A stretch of 64,000 nucleotides of DNA from Halostella limicola (lineage in GTDB: Archaea; Halobacteriota; Halobacteria; Halobacteriales; Natronoarchaeaceae). The stretch covers positions 372,001 to 436,000 of the forward strand of contig NZ_RCDI01000004.1 of the NCBI RefSeq assembly GCF_003675875.1. Reading direction: 5' to 3'. Below, piece by piece: positions 25,036 through 52,201 of the stretch (its first letter is position 1; each line of letters starts with the position of its first letter). A program made the position numbers and the translations under genes. The notes beneath the pieces are model-generated. The model ran no database searches, was not told the origin of the DNA, and saw nothing but the letters and a program-made list of their open reading frames with translations.

Positions 25036-25087
25036 CAGTGTTATTCTACAGTGTGACTGTACAGTGTTGCTGTTCAGTAGCACTGAG
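25036..25087. repeat. Iteron array A: four tandem 13-bp units, CAGT-N3-ACTG type
   Basis: Units in exact 13-bp register are CAGTGTTATTCTA, CAGTGTGACTGTA, CAGTGTTGCTGTT and CAGTAGCACTGAG. Each contains a CAGT/ACTG dyad separated by three bases, so each unit is itself a small palindrome. Such arrays in front of parA genes are typical partition (centromere) or autoregulation sites. Direct binding by the ParA partner is inferred. Confidence 0.8.
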
Positions 25088-25222: not shown

Positions 25223-25326
25223 CAGTGTTTTTGCGCAGCCGGCTTCTCCAGGATAACCATTCAGTGTTACTGTTCAGTATAACTTTCCAGTCATACTCTC
25301 CAGCAACACTGTGAAGTGTGAGTGGG
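25223..25326. repeat. Iteron array B: up to eight 13-bp units ending at the parA TATA box
   Basis: In one continuous 13-bp register from 25223: CAGTGTTTTTGCG, CAGCCGGCTTCTC, CAGGATAACCATT, CAGTGTTACTGTT, CAGTATAACTTTC, CAGTCATACTCTC, CAGCAACACTGTG, AAGTGTGAGTGGG. Units 4-7 fit CAGTNNNACTNNN best; the flanking ones are decayed. The array stops directly before TTTTATAA at 25327, so a bound protein would control parA transcription. Confidence 0.78.
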
Positions 25327-25357
25327 TTTTATAACTCCTCAATTGATCTGTCCAGCC

Positions 25358-26206
25358 ATGATAACGTACACAACGTACTCCGAGGCGGGCGGGGTCGGCA
25401 AGACGACGACCGCGGCGAACCTCGCGGTCGCGCACGCGCGAAACGGGCACGACGTACTCTGCATCGACCTCGACCCGCAGGAGGGGAGCCTGAGCTACCT
25501 ATTCGACGTCGACGGCGAGCGCTCCGACGGCACGGCGGACAACATCGTCCGCCACCTCATCGGGCGACCGAAAGGAGACTTCCGGGACCTGATCCGCGAG
25601 ACCGAGGAGGAGGGCGTGGACGTGATACCGAGTCACAACATGCTCGAGAACCTCACGAGGAACCTGATGAAGGCCGCGGAGATCGAGGAGGACATGCACC
25701 CGGACGACGACTTCGAGTGGCCGAAACACGAGCAGCTCCTCCGGGTGCTGAAGGAAAACGGCGTGCCGGGCGACTACGACGTGATAATCTGCGACCCGCA
25801 GGCGACGCCGGGCGACGCGCTGAACAACGCCATCTTCGCGACGCGGTCGGTCCTCCTGCCGGTCGAACTCTCGGGGAAAGGGGCGCTGAGCATCCGGGGC
25901 CTCGACGACCTGGTGTCCGGCCTCGAAGGCGAGGTCGGCATCCAGGTGGGCGTGCTCGGCGTCGTTCCGGTCGGGTTCAAGCGGACGAACACCCAGCAGT
26001 CGCGGCTCGAAGAACTGGAGTCGTCGGAGTTCGACATGCCGGTGGTGTTCAAGGAGCGCGCCAGCCTCATGCAGAACATGTGGGACTACCAGACCTCGGC
26101 CTACGGAGTGCTGGAGGACAAGCGGGAACCCAACGGGGAGTACGAACTGGAGACCCTGGAGAAGTACGACGACCTCGCGGCCGAAATCGAGGGTGAGTTC
26201 GAATGA
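25358..26206 (+). CDS. ParA/Soj-family partition ATPase
   Basis: 282 residues of the deviant-Walker-A family. The P-loop is EAGGVGKTTTAANLA at residue 8: the 'signature' lysine of KGGVGKT is replaced by Ala, while the second Lys is present. Next come Walker A' CIDLDPQEGSLS and Walker B IICDPQATPGDALNN. These ATPases move plasmids or chromosome origins on the nucleoid, or position complexes, with a DNA-binding partner. ATG 25358 was chosen because a TATA box lies 25 bp upstream (leaderless) and the family motif starts right after it; an ATG at 25322 would overlap the iterons. It overlaps the next gene by four bases (ATGA). Confidence 0.9.
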   Translation: MITYTTYSEAGGVGKTTTAANLAVAHARNGHDVLCIDLDPQEGSLSYLFDVDGERSDGTADNIVRHLIGRPKGDFRDLIRETEEEGVDVIPSHNMLENLTRNLMKAAEIEEDMHPDDDFEWPKHEQLLRVLKENGVPGDYDVIICDPQATPGDALNNAIFATRSVLLPVELSGKGALSIRGLDDLVSGLEGEVGIQVGVLGVVPVGFKRTNTQQSRLEELESSEFDMPVVFKERASLMQNMWDYQTSAYGVLEDKREPNGEYELETLEKYDDLAAEIEGEFE

Positions 26207-26805
26207 AGTCCGGCGCCGGCGACGACCCCTTCGCGGACGACCCATTCGACGAGGACGAGGCGGACGACCAAGCGGACCCGGAGACAGAAACCGCTGCCGA
26301 AGCCGAAGCGGAAGAACCCGAACCGGATGAGTCGGGACAGACGCGAGGCCGGGACTCGAAAGCCAGCGAGGACGTCGACGAGAGCACGGACGACAGCGAC
26401 GCCGCGGACGGGGACGACGGCCGAACTGGCGGGACCGGAGAACGAGTGTCGACGGGGAGCGGACAGCCTGCGAACGAACAGCCGACGGGCGAGACGAGTT
26501 CCTCGGAAGACGGCGGCGGAGGCGAGGACGAGAGCGACGATTCGGACGCCGCGGCGACGCAGGACATCCCGTGGGTGCTCCGACGCTCCCGCGTCAAGGA
26601 GGACCGGGACAACGTCCACCAGTTCTTCCTCCGCGACGAGTACTCGAAGGCGGAGGACGACATCATCGCCGCGGTCGCCGAGGAGCTTGACGTCCGCGAG
26701 AAGCAACTGAAGAAACTGGACGTGCGGGAGGCGATGGTCGCGACCGCCGACGCCGAGGCGATCGCCGAGACGCTGTCGGAGTGGGGCTACGAGTACGTGG
26801 ACTGA
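26203..26805 (+). CDS. Acidic partner protein of ParA (putative ParB/CBP-like)
   Basis: 200 residues. Residues 1 to about 112 are a low-complexity acidic tail (Asp/Glu/Ser/Gly-rich), probably disordered. Residues about 115-200 form a compact alpha-rich domain starting DIPWVLRRSRVKEDRD, then HQFFLRDEYSKAEDDIIAAVAEELD. The four-base overlap with parA and the position match type Ib/SegAB-style cassettes, in which a small downstream protein binds the centromere and activates the ATPase. No classical ParB, HTH or ribbon-helix-helix signature was recognised, so DNA binding is inferred from the context and the upstream iterons. Confidence 0.75.
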   Translation: MKSGAGDDPFADDPFDEDEADDQADPETETAAEAEAEEPEPDESGQTRGRDSKASEDVDESTDDSDAADGDDGRTGGTGERVSTGSGQPANEQPTGETSSSEDGGGGEDESDDSDAAATQDIPWVLRRSRVKEDRDNVHQFFLRDEYSKAEDDIIAAVAEELDVREKQLKKLDVREAMVATADAEAIAETLSEWGYEYVD

Positions 26806-27196
26806 CTCGCCGCGAATTTATATCATCATCAGTACCTTTTTCAGGACCCTATCTCTGGTCGATCTAAGGCGAAAGTAGGGAACGCAAACCCGCTTCTCGA
26901 CGCGGAGAGTGCGTGCGCGAGCCGTCCTAAAACCTCCGTATACGGCACCTAATCCGCGGTATACGGCCAATACCGGTGTCGTAGATGGCGTCTTCTCAGA
27001 CCGAATACGGTCCATTACAATGTATACGCTAGCAGAAATATCGAGGCGGAGATGTCATGAATCGGAACATCGAAATCGGAGCGGACAGTAGCGGCGGAGA
27101 CGGGCGTTTACGGCCCCGCGGCGCCGCAACTCTCGCGCGCGAGACGTGCGAGGGGAAGAGAGGACAGCCGATATGGGCGACGAGAGGTGGGCGACC
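26806..27196. other. Intergenic region with repeated ATACGG operators
   Basis: 391 bp between the partition locus and the PKD surface protein. A T-run (CCTTTTTCAGG near 26834) soon after the partner gene may end transcription. Three copies of a CCGNATACGG-like word follow (separate entry). No gene is seen. Confidence 0.45.
26936..27010. promoter_or_regulatory. Three ATACGG palindromic sites upstream of the PKD protein gene
   Basis: CCGTATACGG (26936-26945, perfect palindrome), CGGTATACGG (26957-26966) and CCGAATACGG (27001-27010) are spaced 21 and 44 bp start to start, about two and four helical turns. This helical phasing suggests cooperative binding of one regulator on a single DNA face. 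The controlled gene is most likely the PKD protein starting at 27197. Confidence 0.5.
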
Positions 27197-30100
27197 ATGA
27201 CCTCGCGGAGAGACAAACTCCGGAGCGCGGCGCTCGCCCTCCTGATGGTGACCTCGGTGTTCGCCACGGTCAACGTCGCGGCGCTCGGGTTCGTCGGAAC
27301 GGCGGAGGCCGCGCCGGGCGACCCAGCGACGTTCGCCGTCACGCAGAACGGTCAGTGCTTCGAGGTCTCGTCGTTCGGCGACGGGACGCAGTCGGTCGAG
27401 AACTTCTACGACTACCGCCCGACGAGTTCCGGGGCCTACAGCTCGCACGGCACGACGGAGTTCCAGGAGAACGATACGACCCAGATGTTCCTCTACAACG
27501 GGTCCGAAGGCGTCAGCCTGGTCGTCGTGCACGACAAGCTGAACGGGGACGACTCCGGCGGGAACGTGACGTTCAACGTCTCCGGCGTTCCGTCCGGAAG
27601 CGAGTGGGCCGTCAGAGACGATTACTACGAGAACAACGACGGCGAGCAAGCGGATACGAACTACGACAACTTCAGCATCGACGGCGACACGGCCCACGCC
27701 GACTGGTTCTGGGTGGACGACCGCACCGACGGCGGCGCCCTGCGTGCCCCGCAAGGCGCGGAGTTCAGCATGACCGTCACCCCGGCGTTCAACGAGGACG
27801 CCCATCACGACCACCCCGACGGCCGGTACAACGGCGGGCAGATCACGACGTGGAACGTCCGGTCGCCCGACGGCACCGCGGGCGGGGGAGCGACCGAACT
27901 CGACATGAGCCAGCCGGTGTCGATCGAGACCGGCGGCTGCGGCTCCGCGCCCGACGCGAGCCTCGACGCGACGCCGGCGAACGCGTCCATCGGCGAGAAC
28001 GTCACCTTCGACGCGAGCGGCTCGGTCGACGAGGACGGCGACATCGCCGAGTACCGCTGGGACTTCGACGGCGACGGACAGGTCGACCGCACGACCCAGG
28101 GAGCGACGACGCAGGCCGCCTACGACGCGGCCGGCGAGTACGAAGCCTCCGTCACCGTCGTCGACGAGGAGGACCGGAGCGACACGGCGACCGCGAACGT
28201 CTCCGTCAGCGAATCGCTGACGGCGCATGCGGACGTTCCGTCCGGGGTCGAGGTGAACGAGACGTTCACCGCCGACGGCTCGAACAGCACCGGCGACGTA
28301 CGGACCTACGAGTGGGACTTCGGCGACGGTACCACACGATCGGGCGAGACCGTCGACCACGCCTACGACCAGACCGGCACGTACACGGTCACACTGACGG
28401 TCTCCGACGGGTCCGGTGACGAGGACACCACGACCGCCGAGGTGACGGTGACCGAACCCGACGAGACGCCGCCGAACGCGTCGCTGACGGCGACGCCGGA
28501 GAACGCGTCGCTCGGCGAGAACGTCACCTTCGACGCCGGCGACTCGTCCGACGACGGCACCATCGCGGAGTACCGCTGGGACTTCGACGGCGACGGGCAG
28601 GTCGACCGCACGACCCAGGGGGCGACGACGCAGACCGCCTACGACGCGGCCGGCGAGTACGAAGCCTCCGTCACCGTCGTCGACACCGGCGACAACGAGG
28701 ACACGGCGACGGCGACGGTCACGGTCTCGGACGAGACGCCGCCGAACGCCAGCGCGAACGTTCCCTCCCGAGTCGCGGTCGGTGATACGTTCACCGCCGA
28801 CGGGTCGGACAGCACCGATAACGGCGAGATCGTCAGCTACGAGTGGGACTTCGGCGACGGCGCCAACGCTACCGGCCAGAGCGTCACCCACGCGTACGAC
28901 GAGAACGGGACCTACGAGGTCACCCTGACCGTCACCGACGCCGCCGGGAACGCGGACAGCGACACGGTCACCGTCGAGGCGGTCGACGCCGACGAGGACG
29001 CCGCGCCCAACGCGAGCCTCGACGCGACGCCGTCCACCGCGAACACCGGCGAGACGGTCACCTTCGACGCCAGCGGCTCCTCGGACGACGACGGCATCAT
29101 CGAGTACCGCTGGGACTTCGACGGCGACGGCAAGGTCGACCGCACGACCGAGTCGGCGACGGCGGAGAAGACCTACGAGCACGCCGGCGAGTACGGGGCG
29201 ACGGTCACCGTCGTCGACACCGCCGGCCAGACGGACACCGCCTCAGCCACCGTAACCGTCGAGGACTCCGACGACGGCGGCGACGGCGGCGACGCGCCGC
29301 CGACGGCCGCGGTCACCGCGCCGGAGACGGTCGTCGTGAACGAGACGTTCGAGATAGACGCCAGCGGGTCGACCGACGACGACGGCATCGTCGAGTACCG
29401 CTGGGACTTCAACGACGACGGCAAGATCGACCGGACCACGACCGAGGCGAAGACGATCAAGGTGTACAACCGGCCGAAGACCTTCACCACGGAGGTCACC
29501 GTGGTCGACGCTTCGGGACAGACCGACTCGGCGACCGTGACCATCGAGGCCACGGAGCCAGACGACGAGGCCCCGACCGGTGACGTGCACGCGCCGGAGA
29601 CGGTCAACGTCGGCGAGGAGTTCGCCGTCAACGTGACGAACGTGCACGACGAGAGCGGCATCGCGCACGTCTGCTGGTACTTCGACGGCGAGAAGGGGCC
29701 CGACGGGCGGAGCGCGACGGTCGCGTTCGACTCGGCGGGCACCCACACCGTCTCGGTGCTGCTGCGAGACGAGGAGGGCAACGAACGCACCATCTCCACG
29801 CAGGTGGAGGTCGTCGCGGAGGACGACGGCGGTGACTCCGGTGGCGACGGCGGAAACTCCGGCGGCAACACCGGTGGTAACACCGGGGGTAGCGCTGGCG
29901 GCAACACCGGAGGCCACACCGGCGGCAGCGCCGGGAGCGCGGACGACGGCGACGAGTCCGACGGCTCGTCGATGGAGACCGAGGTCGACACCTCCGCGGC
30001 GAACGTCGTCGCGCTCTCCGTCACCGGCGCCGACGCCGGCGACCACGCGACGGTCGCCATTCCCGCCGACAACTGGACCGAGGCCCTGACGTTCGACGGG

Positions 30101-30910
30101 ATGACGACGACGTTCGACGCCGCGGGCGACTACGACTTGACGGTCGAGTCGAGCGCCGACGCCCCCGAGAACGTCACCGCGCCGACGGTCGAGGGCGACG
30201 GCTTCGCGCCGCAGGCGTACCTCACCGTCGACCATCCGAACGTGAACGACGAGGACGTGCGCAACGCCTCGATCACGTTCACTGTTCAGAAGGACCTGCT
30301 CGACCGGACTGACGCCGAGCCCGACGCCGTCGGGCTCTACCGCGCGACCAACGGCTCCTGGGAGCGGGTCGAGGTCGAGCACCTCGGCGAGAACGGCTCG
30401 GTCCACGAGTTCCGCGCGAACCTGACCGAGCTGTCGACGTTCGCCGCGGGCGTCGACCGGCCCTCGACGGCCGTGACGGAGGTCGCGATCGACGACACCG
30501 ACGTCAAGGCGGGCGACGTTATCGAGGTCACGGCGACCGTCGCGAACGACGGTCGCGCCGACGGGACGGTCGCCGCCGAGCTGACGGTCGACGGCACGGT
30601 CGTCGCGAGCGAGAACGTGAGCGTCGCCGCCGGCGAGACGGCGACGGTCGCCTTCGAGCACGAACTGGCGAGCGCCGGCACGCTGACCGTCGGCGTCAAC
30701 GGCGAGACGACCGACCTCTCCGTCGCGTCGGTCGAGACCGACGACTCCGACGACGCGACCGAGAGCACGACCGAAGCGGGCGACGGCTCGTCGGACGACT
30801 CCGACGACCCCGACGAGTCCAACTCGCTCGGCCAGCCCGGCATGGGCGTCGGCGCCGCGCTCGTCGCGCTGCTGTGCGCGTCGCTGGTGGCGCTGCGCCG
30901 GCGGGACTGA
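27197..30910 (+). CDS. Large secreted PKD-repeat surface protein with PGF-CTERM-like anchor
   Basis: About 1237 residues. A Sec-type signal (LALLMVTSVFATVNVAALGF, then AEA-AP) starts at residue 10. A 220-residue N-terminal domain with WFWVDD and HHDHPDG follows. Next come six clear PKD domains (repeated YRWDFDGDG or YEWDFGDG cores) and a seventh degenerate one. A Gly/Asn-rich hinge (about residues 880-915) leads to a PGF-pre-PGF-like domain and a CARDB-like domain. The tail reads GQPGMGVGAALVALL...RRRD, which resembles the archaeosortase PGF-CTERM signal with Met in place of Phe. The protein is probably exported, N-glycosylated (many NxS/T) and anchored outside. ATG 27173 is an alternative start. 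Confidence 0.87.
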   Translation: MTSRRDKLRSAALALLMVTSVFATVNVAALGFVGTAEAAPGDPATFAVTQNGQCFEVSSFGDGTQSVENFYDYRPTSSGAYSSHGTTEFQENDTTQMFLYNGSEGVSLVVVHDKLNGDDSGGNVTFNVSGVPSGSEWAVRDDYYENNDGEQADTNYDNFSIDGDTAHADWFWVDDRTDGGALRAPQGAEFSMTVTPAFNEDAHHDHPDGRYNGGQITTWNVRSPDGTAGGGATELDMSQPVSIETGGCGSAPDASLDATPANASIGENVTFDASGSVDEDGDIAEYRWDFDGDGQVDRTTQGATTQAAYDAAGEYEASVTVVDEEDRSDTATANVSVSESLTAHADVPSGVEVNETFTADGSNSTGDVRTYEWDFGDGTTRSGETVDHAYDQTGTYTVTLTVSDGSGDEDTTTAEVTVTEPDETPPNASLTATPENASLGENVTFDAGDSSDDGTIAEYRWDFDGDGQVDRTTQGATTQTAYDAAGEYEASVTVVDTGDNEDTATATVTVSDETPPNASANVPSRVAVGDTFTADGSDSTDNGEIVSYEWDFGDGANATGQSVTHAYDENGTYEVTLTVTDAAGNADSDTVTVEAVDADEDAAPNASLDATPSTANTGETVTFDASGSSDDDGIIEYRWDFDGDGKVDRTTESATAEKTYEHAGEYGATVTVVDTAGQTDTASATVTVEDSDDGGDGGDAPPTAAVTAPETVVVNETFEIDASGSTDDDGIVEYRWDFNDDGKIDRTTTEAKTIKVYNRPKTFTTEVTVVDASGQTDSATVTIEATEPDDEAPTGDVHAPETVNVGEEFAVNVTNVHDESGIAHVCWYFDGEKGPDGRSATVAFDSAGTHTVSVLLRDEEGNERTISTQVEVVAEDDGGDSGGDGGNSGGNTGGNTGGSAGGNTGGHTGGSAGSADDGDESDGSSMETEVDTSAANVVALSVTGADAGDHATVAIPADNWTEALTFDGMTTTFDAAGDYDLTVESSADAPENVTAPTVEGDGFAPQAYLTVDHPNVNDEDVRNASITFTVQKDLLDRTDAEPDAVGLYRATNGSWERVEVEHLGENGSVHEFRANLTELSTFAAGVDRPSTAVTEVAIDDTDVKAGDVIEVTATVANDGRADGTVAAELTVDGTVVASENVSVAAGETATVAFEHELASAGTLTVGVNGETTDLSVASVETDDSDDATESTTEAGDGSSDDSDDPDESNSLGQPGMGVGAALVALLCASLVALRRRD
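28049..28684 (+). repeat. Near-identical 117-bp PKD repeat units within the surface protein gene
   Basis: The segments 28049-28165 and 28568-28684 differ at only three of 117 positions, while the other PKD units of the same gene are far more diverged. Recent duplication or gene conversion explains this. Confidence 0.8.
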
Positions 30911-47382: not shown

Positions 47383-48587
47383 ACCTGACACCATGTGAAA
47401 CGCTAATAAATAGCTTATCCACAATAACCATATAATACGTACACAGTTACTGAGTTAGTTCGCTCTGTATGTCCCAGAAGGGCGAGTAAACGTGTTGCGA
47501 ACGCCACTGTCTCGGTCACCCGACTGATCGTTACACGCAGAACCTCCGGATACCCACCGCCGGGCGCCGTCGAAGTAGTAATCGACCGGTTGTTTGAACG
47601 TTCTCGATCGTTCCCCTAGCGAGTGGTTGGGAATGGCCTTCTCGGATCGGCCATCGTAATTATTTTATTTATTATTATATCTCTAACGAGTGGTATGATT
47701 TACACATCTGGAAACGTTCCATTTTAATCTAATCAGGTATATAATATATAAATGGGATTGTACTGCGCCCCTAGTTTACGCTACAATACATATGAAATCC
47801 TTTTTCCGTAAATGAGCAGTTGTGGTCGCATATTCGATAGCTATAAATAACATATATTATTTTTATATTTTAATTTATAATTTATATAAGTATAGTACGG
47901 AGTCTCAGACTTTGCAGACCTCACTATCCAGCCGTGAAAATAGCACGTGTGGAGTAGGAAATGATTGACAGATACATATTATAGAAATACCTCAATAACG
48001 GCCCGAACACGTGAACTGCCGCGAGATCGGATCCCGGAGACTCTAGCTCTACGACGCGCTCCGAGGCCATCGAATAGGACGAGCCCGACGATGGCCGGAC
48101 ACGTCGGGCGATACGACTGCGTTATCGCCATCCGTACCCGGACAACTCTATTCCTCCCCTGGACGATGATCGGTTCGATGATGGACCCCTGGTGGGGAAC
48201 TGCTCCCCGAGCGCCCATGATCGCCAGCTCGCCGCGGTTGATCGTAGTAACCACCGCCGGTCGCCCGCTAGTCGCGACCTGGACAGGAGCGGGACCGACA
48301 ACGGGGAGGACGCTCCCGATTTCCCGGCGGCTGCGTCGCTACGGGAGAAATACCCGACGCGTTACCGGTGGGGCGCCTGGGCTCTCTTCGGAGATACCGG
48401 GCCGAGGAGTGCTTACGAAGCGGAATCGGGCCTCCGCGTCCGCTCGATAATACGATCGTAACCGATCCGTGGCAGTAAACGGTCTATGACACTTATTCCA
48501 GTCCCCGAGAAAGCGCATGGTCGGGACTTGGCGTTCCGGGCGGTATACCGCATCGTCGCGGCCGTCCGGGAAGGCTCAAGGAGGACC
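47383..48587. other. Long AT-rich region without genes
   Basis: 1205 bp. The part 47640-47990 is extremely AT-rich for this genome (ATTATTTTATTTATTATTAT, TTTATATTTTAATTTATAAT). From 48000 to 48580 the DNA is GC-rich again, but the frames there (for example 47965-48450 plus or 47979-48254 minus) have compositions unlike haloarchaeal proteins, so I call no gene. It may be a relic insertion, a divergent promoter region, or a structural/replication-related AT-rich element. Confidence 0.5.
47439..47452 (+). promoter_or_regulatory. Shared island motif, site 5, upstream of the second aminotransferase operon
   Basis: GTACACAGTTACTG fits the motif best of all five. It lies 57 bp before the start codon and about 25 bp upstream of the TATA-like element, an activator-like position, unlike the start-codon overlap at 41341. 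Confidence 0.62.
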
Positions 48588-50342
48588 ATGGACCACAAGG
48601 ACGAAACAACCGACGAGGGCACAGAACGACGCGCCGCGGCGGCGACGCGCCGCACGGTACTCTCAGTCGCCGCCGTCGGCGGCCCCTACGCGATGTTCGC
48701 CGGCGTCCACCGATCGACCGACCAGGAGAGCGCTCGGATCGAGCTCGGCGGCGAAACGCCCGGGTGGGTCGGCAGAGCGCCCGCCGACATCGAGGGCGAG
48801 ACGAACCCGACGCTGACGCTGACCGCCGGCGAGACGTACGAGCTCGTCTGGGAGAACGTCGACGGAGCGCCGCACAACGTCGTTATCGTGGACGGCGAGG
48901 GCTCCGAACTCGTCCGGAGCGAGATCATCAGCGAACAGGGCACGACCCAGACCGTCGAGTTCACGGCGAGCGAGGAGATGGCGGAGTACTACTGCGAGGT
49001 GCATCCGAACACGATGCACGGCGACGTCGCGGTAGAAGCCGAAACGACGGCAGAATCCGCCGTAGAAACGTCCGAAGGGGAAACCGACGAGGAAGAGGAG
49101 GAACTGGAACGACCGACGTTCGATCCGGACGTGGTCGAGGAACACCAGGGAGACGTGGCGACGATCGCCGTCTCCCTCGGCGATTACGACCGGTGCGACG
49201 TGGTCATCGGGTCACAGGAACTGAACTACAAGGTCGGATTCACCGCCATCGACGGCGTCGCCGCCGAGGAGGACGGAGACGGCCAAGGCGGTGAAGACGC
49301 CGCGAGCGGCGACGGAGCAGGGGACGGCGGCGACGAAGAACAGGCGGGAAGCGACGGACAACAAGACAGCAGCGACGGACAACAGGACGGTAGCGATAGC
49401 GGACAGGACGACGGCGACGCCGTCGAGGCCGACGGCGTGGTGAAGATAGCATTCGATTCCTTCGTCGCTGGGCGAGGGGACGAGTCCGGGATCAGGGCGG
49501 TGAACGAGGGGGATCGGATCCGAAACTACGAGCATGCGACCCCGGAACTTCCGTCACCCCTTGATCCAACTGCCTACCCGCTCGAGGCGTACGTCGAGGG
49601 GGAGTTAACGGCCTACGGCGCGTTGCTGCTGCAGCCCCGCGAGACGGTGGATGCGACCCCGGGGGTGGCACCGGACGGGTCGAGTCCCTCGTCATCGGAC
49701 GACTTCCCCGACCACGTCACTCGGCGCGAAGAGGTCGCGACGGGCGACTGGGCGGTAGTCGAAGTCGAGGCGTCGGGACTGTACGCCACGCTCGACGATA
49801 TCTCGGCGTTCGACGACGAATCGCTGGGATACGAGCTGAACATCGTACGGACCGACGTACCCAACCGCCGCGACACGATCCCGCTGGAGGAGGTCAGCGT
49901 CGTCACGGACGCCGAGAACGATCGCTTCTTCGTCGTCGCGGATACGGACTCACTCCAAATCGGCGCGGTCTACGAGACGATGTTCACCATCACGGACGCC
50001 AACCCGTACGTGCCCGACGGCGAGAGCGAGAGCGTTTCGACGTCGTTCACCGTCGTCGAACGGAGCGTCTCCTTCGACATCGACGGGGACGCGCTGACGG
50101 TGCCGCCGTCGGAAACGGAACTCACCGGGACGGCGTCGGTCGCACCCGGAACGCCTCTCACGGTGATGGTGGCAAGCACTCAAGAGATCCATCTCCGGGA
50201 AGCGGTACAGACCACGGTCGAAGAGGACGGCACGTGGGCCGCGACCGTCGACTTCTCCCGCTACGTTCCCGGTATGCGGTTCGTCGCGACCGTGCCCGAG
50301 TTGGACGCCAGGGTGGAAGGGGAGGTCGTGTCGGGGGAATAA
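48588..50342 (+). CDS. Exported cupredoxin-BGTF surface protein
   Basis: 584 residues. A Tat-like segment (ATRRTVLSVAAVGG) at residue 25 directs export. Residues about 70-150 form a halocyanin-like cupredoxin with ligands in GAPHNVVIVDG (His), EYYCEVHPNTMHG (Cys, His, Met). A BGTF-type surface domain starts near PTFDPDVVEEHQGDVATIAV. It is interrupted by a 45-residue Gly/Ser/Asp/Gln insert and followed by repeats and a C-terminal beta domain. No transmembrane anchor is obvious. The start ATG 48588 is preceded by AAGGAGGACC, an unusually strong ribosome site here. It could be an electron-transfer or copper-binding envelope protein. Confidence 0.82.
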   Translation: MDHKDETTDEGTERRAAAATRRTVLSVAAVGGPYAMFAGVHRSTDQESARIELGGETPGWVGRAPADIEGETNPTLTLTAGETYELVWENVDGAPHNVVIVDGEGSELVRSEIISEQGTTQTVEFTASEEMAEYYCEVHPNTMHGDVAVEAETTAESAVETSEGETDEEEEELERPTFDPDVVEEHQGDVATIAVSLGDYDRCDVVIGSQELNYKVGFTAIDGVAAEEDGDGQGGEDAASGDGAGDGGDEEQAGSDGQQDSSDGQQDGSDSGQDDGDAVEADGVVKIAFDSFVAGRGDESGIRAVNEGDRIRNYEHATPELPSPLDPTAYPLEAYVEGELTAYGALLLQPRETVDATPGVAPDGSSPSSSDDFPDHVTRREEVATGDWAVVEVEASGLYATLDDISAFDDESLGYELNIVRTDVPNRRDTIPLEEVSVVTDAENDRFFVVADTDSLQIGAVYETMFTITDANPYVPDGESESVSTSFTVVERSVSFDIDGDALTVPPSETELTGTASVAPGTPLTVMVASTQEIHLREAVQTTVEEDGTWAATVDFSRYVPGMRFVATVPELDARVEGEVVSGE

Positions 50343-50401: not shown

Positions 50402-50453
50402 TAGTATTACTGTTCAGTTTCACCAGCCAGTGTAACTAAGCAGTATTATCGGT
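50402..50453. repeat. Iteron array C: four 13-bp units like those of the partition locus
   Basis: Units in 13-bp register from 50402 are TAGTATTACTGTT, CAGTTTCACCAGC, CAGTGTAACTAAG and CAGTATTATCGGT. They share the CAGT-N3-A(C/T) core and period with arrays A and B, 25 kb away. The array ends 14 bp before the TATA-like TATAAAAA (50468-50475) of the acyl-CoA synthetase. Confidence 0.7.
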
Positions 50454-50527
50454 GAGGACCCCCCTACTATAAAAACGCTATTTTCGGTTCAAAATTTATG
50501 TGTATCCTCGTGGTAAGTGGCTTCGAA

Positions 50528-52201
50528 ATGGTCTCCGAACACAACCTACAAGATTACGAGGACGCACGGGGGAGCTTCTCCTGGGACGACCTGTACGACG
50601 CGGCCGACTGGGACGCGCCGGAACGACTGAACGTCGCCCACGAGACGGTCGACCGCCACGCCGAGGACCGGTCGAAGGTCGCGCTGTACTACCACGGAAC
50701 CGACGGGGAGCGCGAGACCGTCACGTTCTGGGAGCTGTCTGAGCGGTCGAACCGGTTCGCGAACGTCCTCGACGACCTGATCGACGAGGGCGACAGGGTG
50801 TTCTCCTACATGCCGCGGGTCCCGGAGCACTACGTCGCCATGATCGGGACGCTCAAGCGCGGCGCGGTGTGGGGGTCAGTCAACGAGCGGTTCGGACCGG
50901 ACGGCATCGCCTATCGCCTGGACGACTGCGACGCGAAGGTCGTCGTCACCACGCCGGAGAACCGCGACACCGTCGGGGAGGCGCTCGAAGACGCTCCGTC
51001 CGTCGAACACGTGATCGTGGTCAGCGACGATGGCACCGGAGTCCGGCCGGGCGATCTGAGCTACCACGGCGTCGTCGACGCCGCGGACCGCGAGTACGAC
51101 GCCGCCGAGACCGGCGGCGAGGACGACGCGCTCCTGTACTACACCTCGGGAACGACCGGTCCCGCGAAGGGCGTGTTGCACAAACAGCGGTGGGTCGCCG
51201 GCGTCGCGGCCACCCAGAAGTACGCCGTCGACCTGCAGGAGGGCGACCTCTACTGGTCGACCGGCGACCTCGGCTGGCTCACCGGAGCGATCAACACCCT
51301 CGGGGCGTGGTTCTGGGGCGCGTCGCTTTTTACCTACGAGGGCGAGTTCGACTCCGAGACGTGGGCCGACCTCCTCGACGAGTACCCGATCACGGTGCTG
51401 TTCTCGGTGCCGACCGCGTACCGCATGCTCCGGACCGACGACGAGGTGCTGTCGGACGCGTCGCTCGACCTCCGGCACGCGCTCTCGATCGGCGAGCCCC
51501 TCAGCGCCGGCGTCGTTGAGTGGGGCGAGGACACCCTCGGCGTGACCATCCACGACACCTACGGACAGACGGAGACGGGCAACATGATCATCAACAACTA
51601 CCCCTCGATGGAGGTCAAACCGGGGTCGATGGGGAAGCCGCTCCCCGGCATCGAGGCCGCCGTGGTCGATCCCGACGCCGGCGAGCGCCTGCCGCCGGGC
51701 GAGACCGGCGAGATCGCCCAGCGCGGCGACTACCCCTGCTTCTTCGCCGAATACTGGCAGAAGCCGGACAAGACCGCGGACTGCTTCGTCGACGGGCCGG
51801 ACGGCGAGTGGTACCTCTCGGGCGACCTCGCGCACACGGACGAGGACGGCTACTTCTGGTTCGAGGGCCGGGCCGACGACGTGATCATCTCCTCCGGCTA
51901 CCGGATCGGCCCCTTCGAGGTGGAGTCCTCGCTGGGCGAACACCCGGCGGTCGCCGAGGGCGCGGTCGTCCCGAAGCCCGACGAGCAGCGGGGGACCATC
52001 GTGAAGGCGTACGTCACCCTCACCGAGGACTACGAGCCCTCGGAGTCGCTCGTCGAGGAGATCCAGACCCACGTCAAGGAGGACCTCGCGGCCCACGAGT
52101 ACCCCCGGGAGATCGAGTTCGTCGAGGAGCTCCCCAAGACCGTCACCGGGAAGATCCGGCGGACGGAACTGCGCGACCGGACCGAGGACCCGACCAGTTA
52201 G
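50528..52201 (+). CDS. AMP-forming acyl-CoA synthetase (acetyl/medium-chain type)
   Basis: 557 residues from MVSEHNLQDYEDA. ANL motifs in order: YYTSGTTGPAKGVLHK (P-loop, near 207), TYGQTETG, WYLSGDLAHTDEDGY, DDVIISSGYRIGPFEVE, and the adenylation Lys in PKTVTGKIRR. It makes acyl-CoA, AMP and PPi from a short or medium carboxylic acid. An upstream in-frame ATG at 50498 is 24 bp from the TATA-like TATAAAAA, so a leaderless start adding ten residues is possible. Its promoter carries the partition-type iterons, which could place it under the ParA-partner system or simply mark a nearby centromere-like site. Confidence 0.87.
   Translation: MVSEHNLQDYEDARGSFSWDDLYDAADWDAPERLNVAHETVDRHAEDRSKVALYYHGTDGERETVTFWELSERSNRFANVLDDLIDEGDRVFSYMPRVPEHYVAMIGTLKRGAVWGSVNERFGPDGIAYRLDDCDAKVVVTTPENRDTVGEALEDAPSVEHVIVVSDDGTGVRPGDLSYHGVVDAADREYDAAETGGEDDALLYYTSGTTGPAKGVLHKQRWVAGVAATQKYAVDLQEGDLYWSTGDLGWLTGAINTLGAWFWGASLFTYEGEFDSETWADLLDEYPITVLFSVPTAYRMLRTDDEVLSDASLDLRHALSIGEPLSAGVVEWGEDTLGVTIHDTYGQTETGNMIINNYPSMEVKPGSMGKPLPGIEAAVVDPDAGERLPPGETGEIAQRGDYPCFFAEYWQKPDKTADCFVDGPDGEWYLSGDLAHTDEDGYFWFEGRADDVIISSGYRIGPFEVESSLGEHPAVAEGAVVPKPDEQRGTIVKAYVTLTEDYEPSESLVEEIQTHVKEDLAAHEYPREIEFVEELPKTVTGKIRRTELRDRTEDPTS

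Follow-up and report, generated by a model that had tools for sequence, protein, structure and literature searches.

A distal array of palindromic 13-bp repeats on a Halostella limicola megaplasmid, a probable secondary site of a ParA/partner partition system

To gain insight into a repeat array in front of a metabolic gene of Halostella limicola we analysed a stretch of 64,000 nucleotides, in the following called the window, together with the contig it belongs to (C5), the whole genome and related haloarchaeal replicons. The window contains a parA gene, preceded by two repeat arrays and followed by an overlapping partner gene. A further array of the same kind is located 25 kb from these parA-proximal repeats, in front of a gene for an acyl-CoA synthetase. 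The features are, in window coordinates:

25036 to 25087, forward strand: parA-proximal array 1, four units (sequence and motif scans)
25249 to 25326, forward strand: parA-proximal array 2, four strong units at 25262-25313 with weaker units on both sides
25358 to 26206, forward strand: parA, Walker-type ATPase (PF13614, 4e-21; PF01656, 2e-14; family alignment)
26203 to 26805, forward strand: partner gene, candidate centromere-binding protein, the start of which overlaps the end of parA
50402 to 50453, forward strand: distal array, four 13-bp units (sequence, matrix and pattern scans)
50468 to 50474, forward strand: TATA box of the synthetase promoter (from the sequence), 14 bp past the distal array
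50528 to 52201, forward strand: AMP-binding acyl/acetyl-CoA synthetase (Pfam PF00501 and PF13193), with its ATG at 50528

Directly before the distal array the window encodes a 618-aa protein with a plastocyanin-type copper-binding domain and DUF7827 (48486-50342), for which no counterpart was found at the corresponding locus of the same-genus relative G004 (MAG QS_9_68_17).

The four units of the distal array start in 13-bp register at 50402 (TAGTATTACTGTT), 50415 (CAGTTTCACCAGC), 50428 (CAGTGTAACTAAG) and 50441 (CAGTATTATCGGT). Their sequence with the common core is exactly as quoted in a preliminary description of this DNA. Its placement of the array directly upstream of a TATA box (TATAAAA, starting at 50468) and its assignment of the gene behind the array to the acyl-CoA synthetases were likewise borne out. 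The units are imperfect 11-bp palindromes (consensus CAGTnnnACTG) with a 2-bp spacer, and their palindromic nature is absent from that description. Scored with a matrix trained solely with parA-proximal arrays from four species, the four units reached 49.5 bits. When the intergenic region that holds the array was shuffled 20,000 times, the highest score was 19.6 bits, and among 1,904 further AT-rich segments of the replicon it was 14.5 bits. With a uniform background the array scored 39.5 bits, corresponding to an expectation of the order of 1e-5 per genome. The array is real and lies far above chance.

At the par locus a TATA box is found at 25330, 16 bp from the strong units of proximal array 2. 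The partner protein has an acidic disordered N-terminus, beginning MKSGAGDDPFADD, and a conserved C-terminal domain with a QxFLR-like segment and helices. No Pfam, NCBIfam or PHROG model covers its family, the Pfam and NCBIfam searches revealed no ParB domain, and a profile of the family returned nothing meaningful when run against PDB sequences. A first structure model, built from 36 sequences, was mediocre and matched nothing in the PDB or in viral libraries. A second model of the family domain, built from 56 sequences, was confident (pLDDT 92.6) and consists of an extended segment followed by helices 24-41, 47-59 and 62-71, with no strand in the monomer. A fold search with Foldseek provided no significant match for the second model; the weak hits of the fold and profile searches include ParD, NikA and Reg576 at E above 5. 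The predicted domain is compatible with the monomer of a ribbon-helix-helix protein, and the partner may belong to this class. Directly after the partner gene the window contains an open reading frame of 1254 aa (27146-30910), which is found at the same place in G004 with 71% identity.

We compared 80 named haloarchaeal ParA loci, in 73 of which a partner of the same type lies beside parA. The upstream regions were analysed for 61 non-redundant loci. A dominant period of 13 or 26 was observed for 59 of these, and the autocorrelation over all 61 loci yielded z = 19.5, 14.4 and 13.0 at lags of 13, 26 and 39, respectively. No signal of a 13-bp periodicity was seen 4 kb away from parA. The motifs fall into classes that follow the groups of loci: CAGTnnnACTG, TAGTCTAACTA, TTAGGCTAA, CTTAGAT and TATAGCTATA. 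Motif learning at the level of the individual locus was noisy for many loci, and the class-level picture was used instead together with a Mantel test. When ParA identity was controlled for, the motif type covaried with the strand-like segment of the partner, which presumably reads the DNA (partial Mantel r of 0.31, compared to a maximum of 0.12 in 2,000 permutations). This covariation is our main reason for regarding the partner as the protein that would bind the arrays. With a ParA, a downstream partner and cis repeats all present, the C5 locus appears, as judged from its sequence, to be a system of the general kind in which a ParA and a centromere-binding protein act in partition.

To see how the arrays are distributed we searched the whole 4.1-Mb genome with a three-unit pattern allowing up to 3 mismatches; our genome-wide statements are based on pattern searches and on the full contigs of par replicons. 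All matches were confined to C5. They comprised the two parA arrays (25036 and 25249), the array at 50402 and one at C5:333669, and a matrix scan of the entire C5 contig concurred. The scan for further arrays that the preliminary description had proposed thus turned up a single addition and none beyond C5. The added array is shorter, lies 38 kb left of the window and 63 kb from the parA-proximal repeats and, having two good units, would be marginal by itself; it is credible because its position is conserved (see below). The ends of C5 share a perfect terminal overlap of 3,522 bp and the contig is therefore most simply read as a circular molecule of 445,983 bp, i.e. a megaplasmid and not the main chromosome. 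A search for orc1/cdc6-type initiators placed the genes closest to the distal arrays at distances of 78 and 166 kb, neither of them near, with 78 kb being the value for the 50402 array. The GC skew of C5 provided no clear origin near this array either.

Among four same-genus relatives (G001 to G004), G001, G003 and G004 have two proximal arrays at parA as well as distal arrays at distances of 22-72 kb, all on the parA contig only. The array at G004:C39:140216 adjoins the same small gene as C5:333669, and we take the two as orthologous on account of this shared neighbour. The arrays G001:241351 and G003:4488 are also orthologous, being located between the same convergent genes at 1.7-2.5 kb from an orc1/cdc6 gene. 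G002 possesses a different partner and motif, with five clusters that all lie no more than about 600 bp from parA; no distal array was found on its replicon. The 50402 array is missing from the orthologous locus of G004. Since it is not conserved there, it may be a copy that arose recently or that is dispensable.

Distal arrays were also present on other haloarchaeal replicons. On the Halomarina PSR21 plasmid (parA at 597.8 kb) they are found at 696.2-696.4 kb and at 722.8-722.9 kb, and the sole orc1/cdc6 gene of the replicon lies 1.9 kb from the second of these arrays. The Halomarina BND7 plasmid (parA at 342.4 kb) has arrays at 226.9 kb and 400.7 kb, the former only 0.1 kb from the plasmid's sole orc1/cdc6 gene. 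On the 94.5-kb plasmid of Halomarina BCD28 the distal array lies at 68.4 kb and parA itself adjoins orc1/cdc6, while in Halorubellus salinus a distal array is located 180 kb from parA. Arrays of a different motif occur on pHH400 of Haloarcula hispanica (2235-2279, 1.0 kb from orc1/cdc6) and on a plasmid of H. litorea (66.86 kb, 1.2 kb from orc1/cdc6). In several draft genomes proximal arrays only were detected. Overall, 6 of the 8 replicons whose parA lies away from orc carry an array 0.1-2.5 kb from orc1/cdc6. For this proximity we obtained P = 3e-9 with all replicons, and 8e-8 and 2.5e-6 after dropping relatives, summarised as about 1e-7, values that are to be read with the fact that the 3-kb cut-off was chosen post hoc, with the data already seen. 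Most distal arrays are situated 3' of genes or between convergent genes and not at promoters. The distal arrays of H. limicola are not beside an orc gene, such that an origin-linked rule fails to explain the position of the 50402 array itself.

As judged from comparison of the sequences, the 50402 array probably serves the ParA/partner partition system encoded by the megaplasmid itself, as a centromere-like site secondary to, and distant from, those at parA. The arrays are confined to the replicon that carries parA, recur in relatives and often lie beside the initiator gene, which points to scattered attachment points rather than to a switch of a metabolic gene. The idea that the array is a remote copy of the partition site, as expected of a megaplasmid centromere, was raised in the preliminary description and gains support from these observations and from the circular 446-kb form of the replicon. 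In such a system dimers of the partner (26203) would bind the palindromic 13-bp units side by side, and a nucleoprotein complex would form at each array, i.e. at the parA promoter, at 50402 and at C5:333669. The complexes could possibly be bridged to one another. Through its acidic N-terminal tail the partner would contact ATP-bound ParA on the host DNA, such that the complexes would be carried apart, and the complex at the parA promoter would additionally repress parA. The roles of the distal arrays in segregation and bridging, as well as autorepression, are thus predicted ones.

The spacing of 14 bp between the array and TATAAAA is close to the 16 bp found at parA, so that an effect on the synthetase promoter is possible. 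The preliminary description had offered as an alternative that the partner acts in a second role as transcription factor for the synthetase gene. In the strict form of this reading the array would be an operator of the promoter with no partition role. Comparison does not support this. The only synthetase ortholog within the family, that of G004 (89-90% identical), is preceded by neither an array nor a similar promoter, and G001 and G003 have distal arrays despite lacking the synthetase; the regulatory reading is therefore without comparative support. Other distal arrays mostly lie away from promoters, as described above, and the whole-genome pattern search found no promoter with an array outside C5. 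A purely regulatory array is thus very unlikely, and the synthetase is probably functionally unlinked to it. A partition site that at the same time modulates the synthetase in a position-dependent manner would agree with both the partition-type motif and the nearly parA-like spacing to the promoter; the promoter link is however not conserved, and we regard such a double role as a lesser possibility, though one to be kept in mind.

The array might also be left over from recombination or duplication of a par region and have no function. C5 harbours two orc1/cdc6 genes of different type as well as a second parA operon, and rearrangements of the genes around par are seen between species, both of which would suit such an origin. 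A relic is nevertheless unlikely, given that the core and the register are retained in all four units, with scores little below those of the proximal arrays, that no further par-region sequence accompanies the array and that distal arrays recur independently. Tandem direct repeats, some of them near orc1/cdc6 in relatives, could finally be true replication iterons, i.e. initiator-binding repeats of an origin. The preliminary description had spoken of a third iteron array. The array is indeed the third of four genome-wide, but the word iteron is wrong: the units are palindromic, their type tracks the par partner, they are always present at parA, and up to 77 kb on either side of the 50402 array there is no orc1/cdc6 gene. 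Lacking an adjacent orc1/cdc6 initiator gene at 50402, the replication-iteron reading was rejected and is to be considered extremely improbable.

In the plasmid partition modules ParF-ParG and delta-omega (pSM19035) parA is combined with a small DNA-binding protein of the ribbon-helix-helix class, and tandem short repeats upstream serve as centromere and operator. The haloarchaeal loci resemble these modules in their parA-plus-partner operon and in the tandem short repeats upstream of it. They differ from them in that the partner has a long acidic N-terminus and belongs to no library family, and in that distal arrays lie tens to hundreds of kb away. The nearest precedent is SegAB of the Sulfolobales, where a ParA-type ATPase and an archaeal DNA-binding partner are encoded by overlapping genes (PMC12284271). 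SegB sites are 13-bp palindromes, concentrated close to segAB and also dispersed along the chromosome of the Sulfolobales (PMC12284271), such that, as here, the best sites are at the operon and further sites are spread over the replicon. The sites described here differ, being tandem arrays of 2-7 units in 13-bp register on secondary replicons, with 1-3 mostly intergenic distal sites that are often beside orc1/cdc6, whereas SegB sites are mostly single and intragenic. The SegB consensus TCTAGAsTCTAGA (PMC12284271) is also not that of the CAGTnnnACTG units, and library searches (Pfam, NCBIfam and PDB sequences) did not match the partner to SegB. Several centromere-like copies per replicon, clustered at the origin and the par genes, are a feature shared with bacterial multi-parS replicons, i.e. 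chromosomal ParABS, repABC megaplasmids (PMC9040568) and the secondary replicons of Deinococcus (PMC7671480). These replicons use ParB and parS, in contrast to the short repeat arrays and the partner without a ParB domain found here.

A review of archaeal segregation names three matters as open: the sorting of several replicons at the same time in halophilic archaea, the appearance of plasmid centromeres in archaea, and their clustered or dispersed arrangement (PMC5120986). Our analysis supplies candidates in the form of a widespread parA-partner family without library annotation, a uniform 13-bp architecture whose motifs differ by group, and dispersed sites adjoining the initiator gene in several replicons. 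No description of haloarchaeal arrays of this kind was found in the open-access literature that was searched. A wider proposal, which we put forward tentatively and regard as somewhat short of an even chance, is that haloarchaeal secondary replicons have multi-site centromeres made up of one array at the par operon, one at the replication initiator/origin and extra relocatable arrays such as 50402, served by the undescribed partner family with orthogonal motif/partner pairs on the different replicons of one cell, and that these arrays together may couple origin firing, folding and segregation. If true, orthogonal pairs would explain how several megaplasmids are sorted at once in halophiles. 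One case, pHH400 of Haloarcula hispanica, is found in a genetically tractable species. Plasmids with the pHH400 oriP are reported to be more stable than other ARS plasmids in this host (PMC4441112); speculatively, the pHH400 array beside orc1/cdc6 might bear on this stability.

C5 itself looks like a cointegrate of two replicons. At C5:54132-55652 it encodes an Orc1/Cdc6 of the G001/G003 type (86-92% identical), to which no array is adjacent on C5. The same megaplasmid has, at C5:247193-248484, another parA-partner operon, which belongs to a different motif class. The second orc1/cdc6 gene (C5:227576-228841) lies about 19 kb from this second parA and is 92% identical to that of the G002 replicon. 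This second par system also has a candidate distal array, at C5:268387-268425 (ATCTTAGATATCTTAGTTAGATCTCTAAG), 21 kb from the parA at C5:247193.
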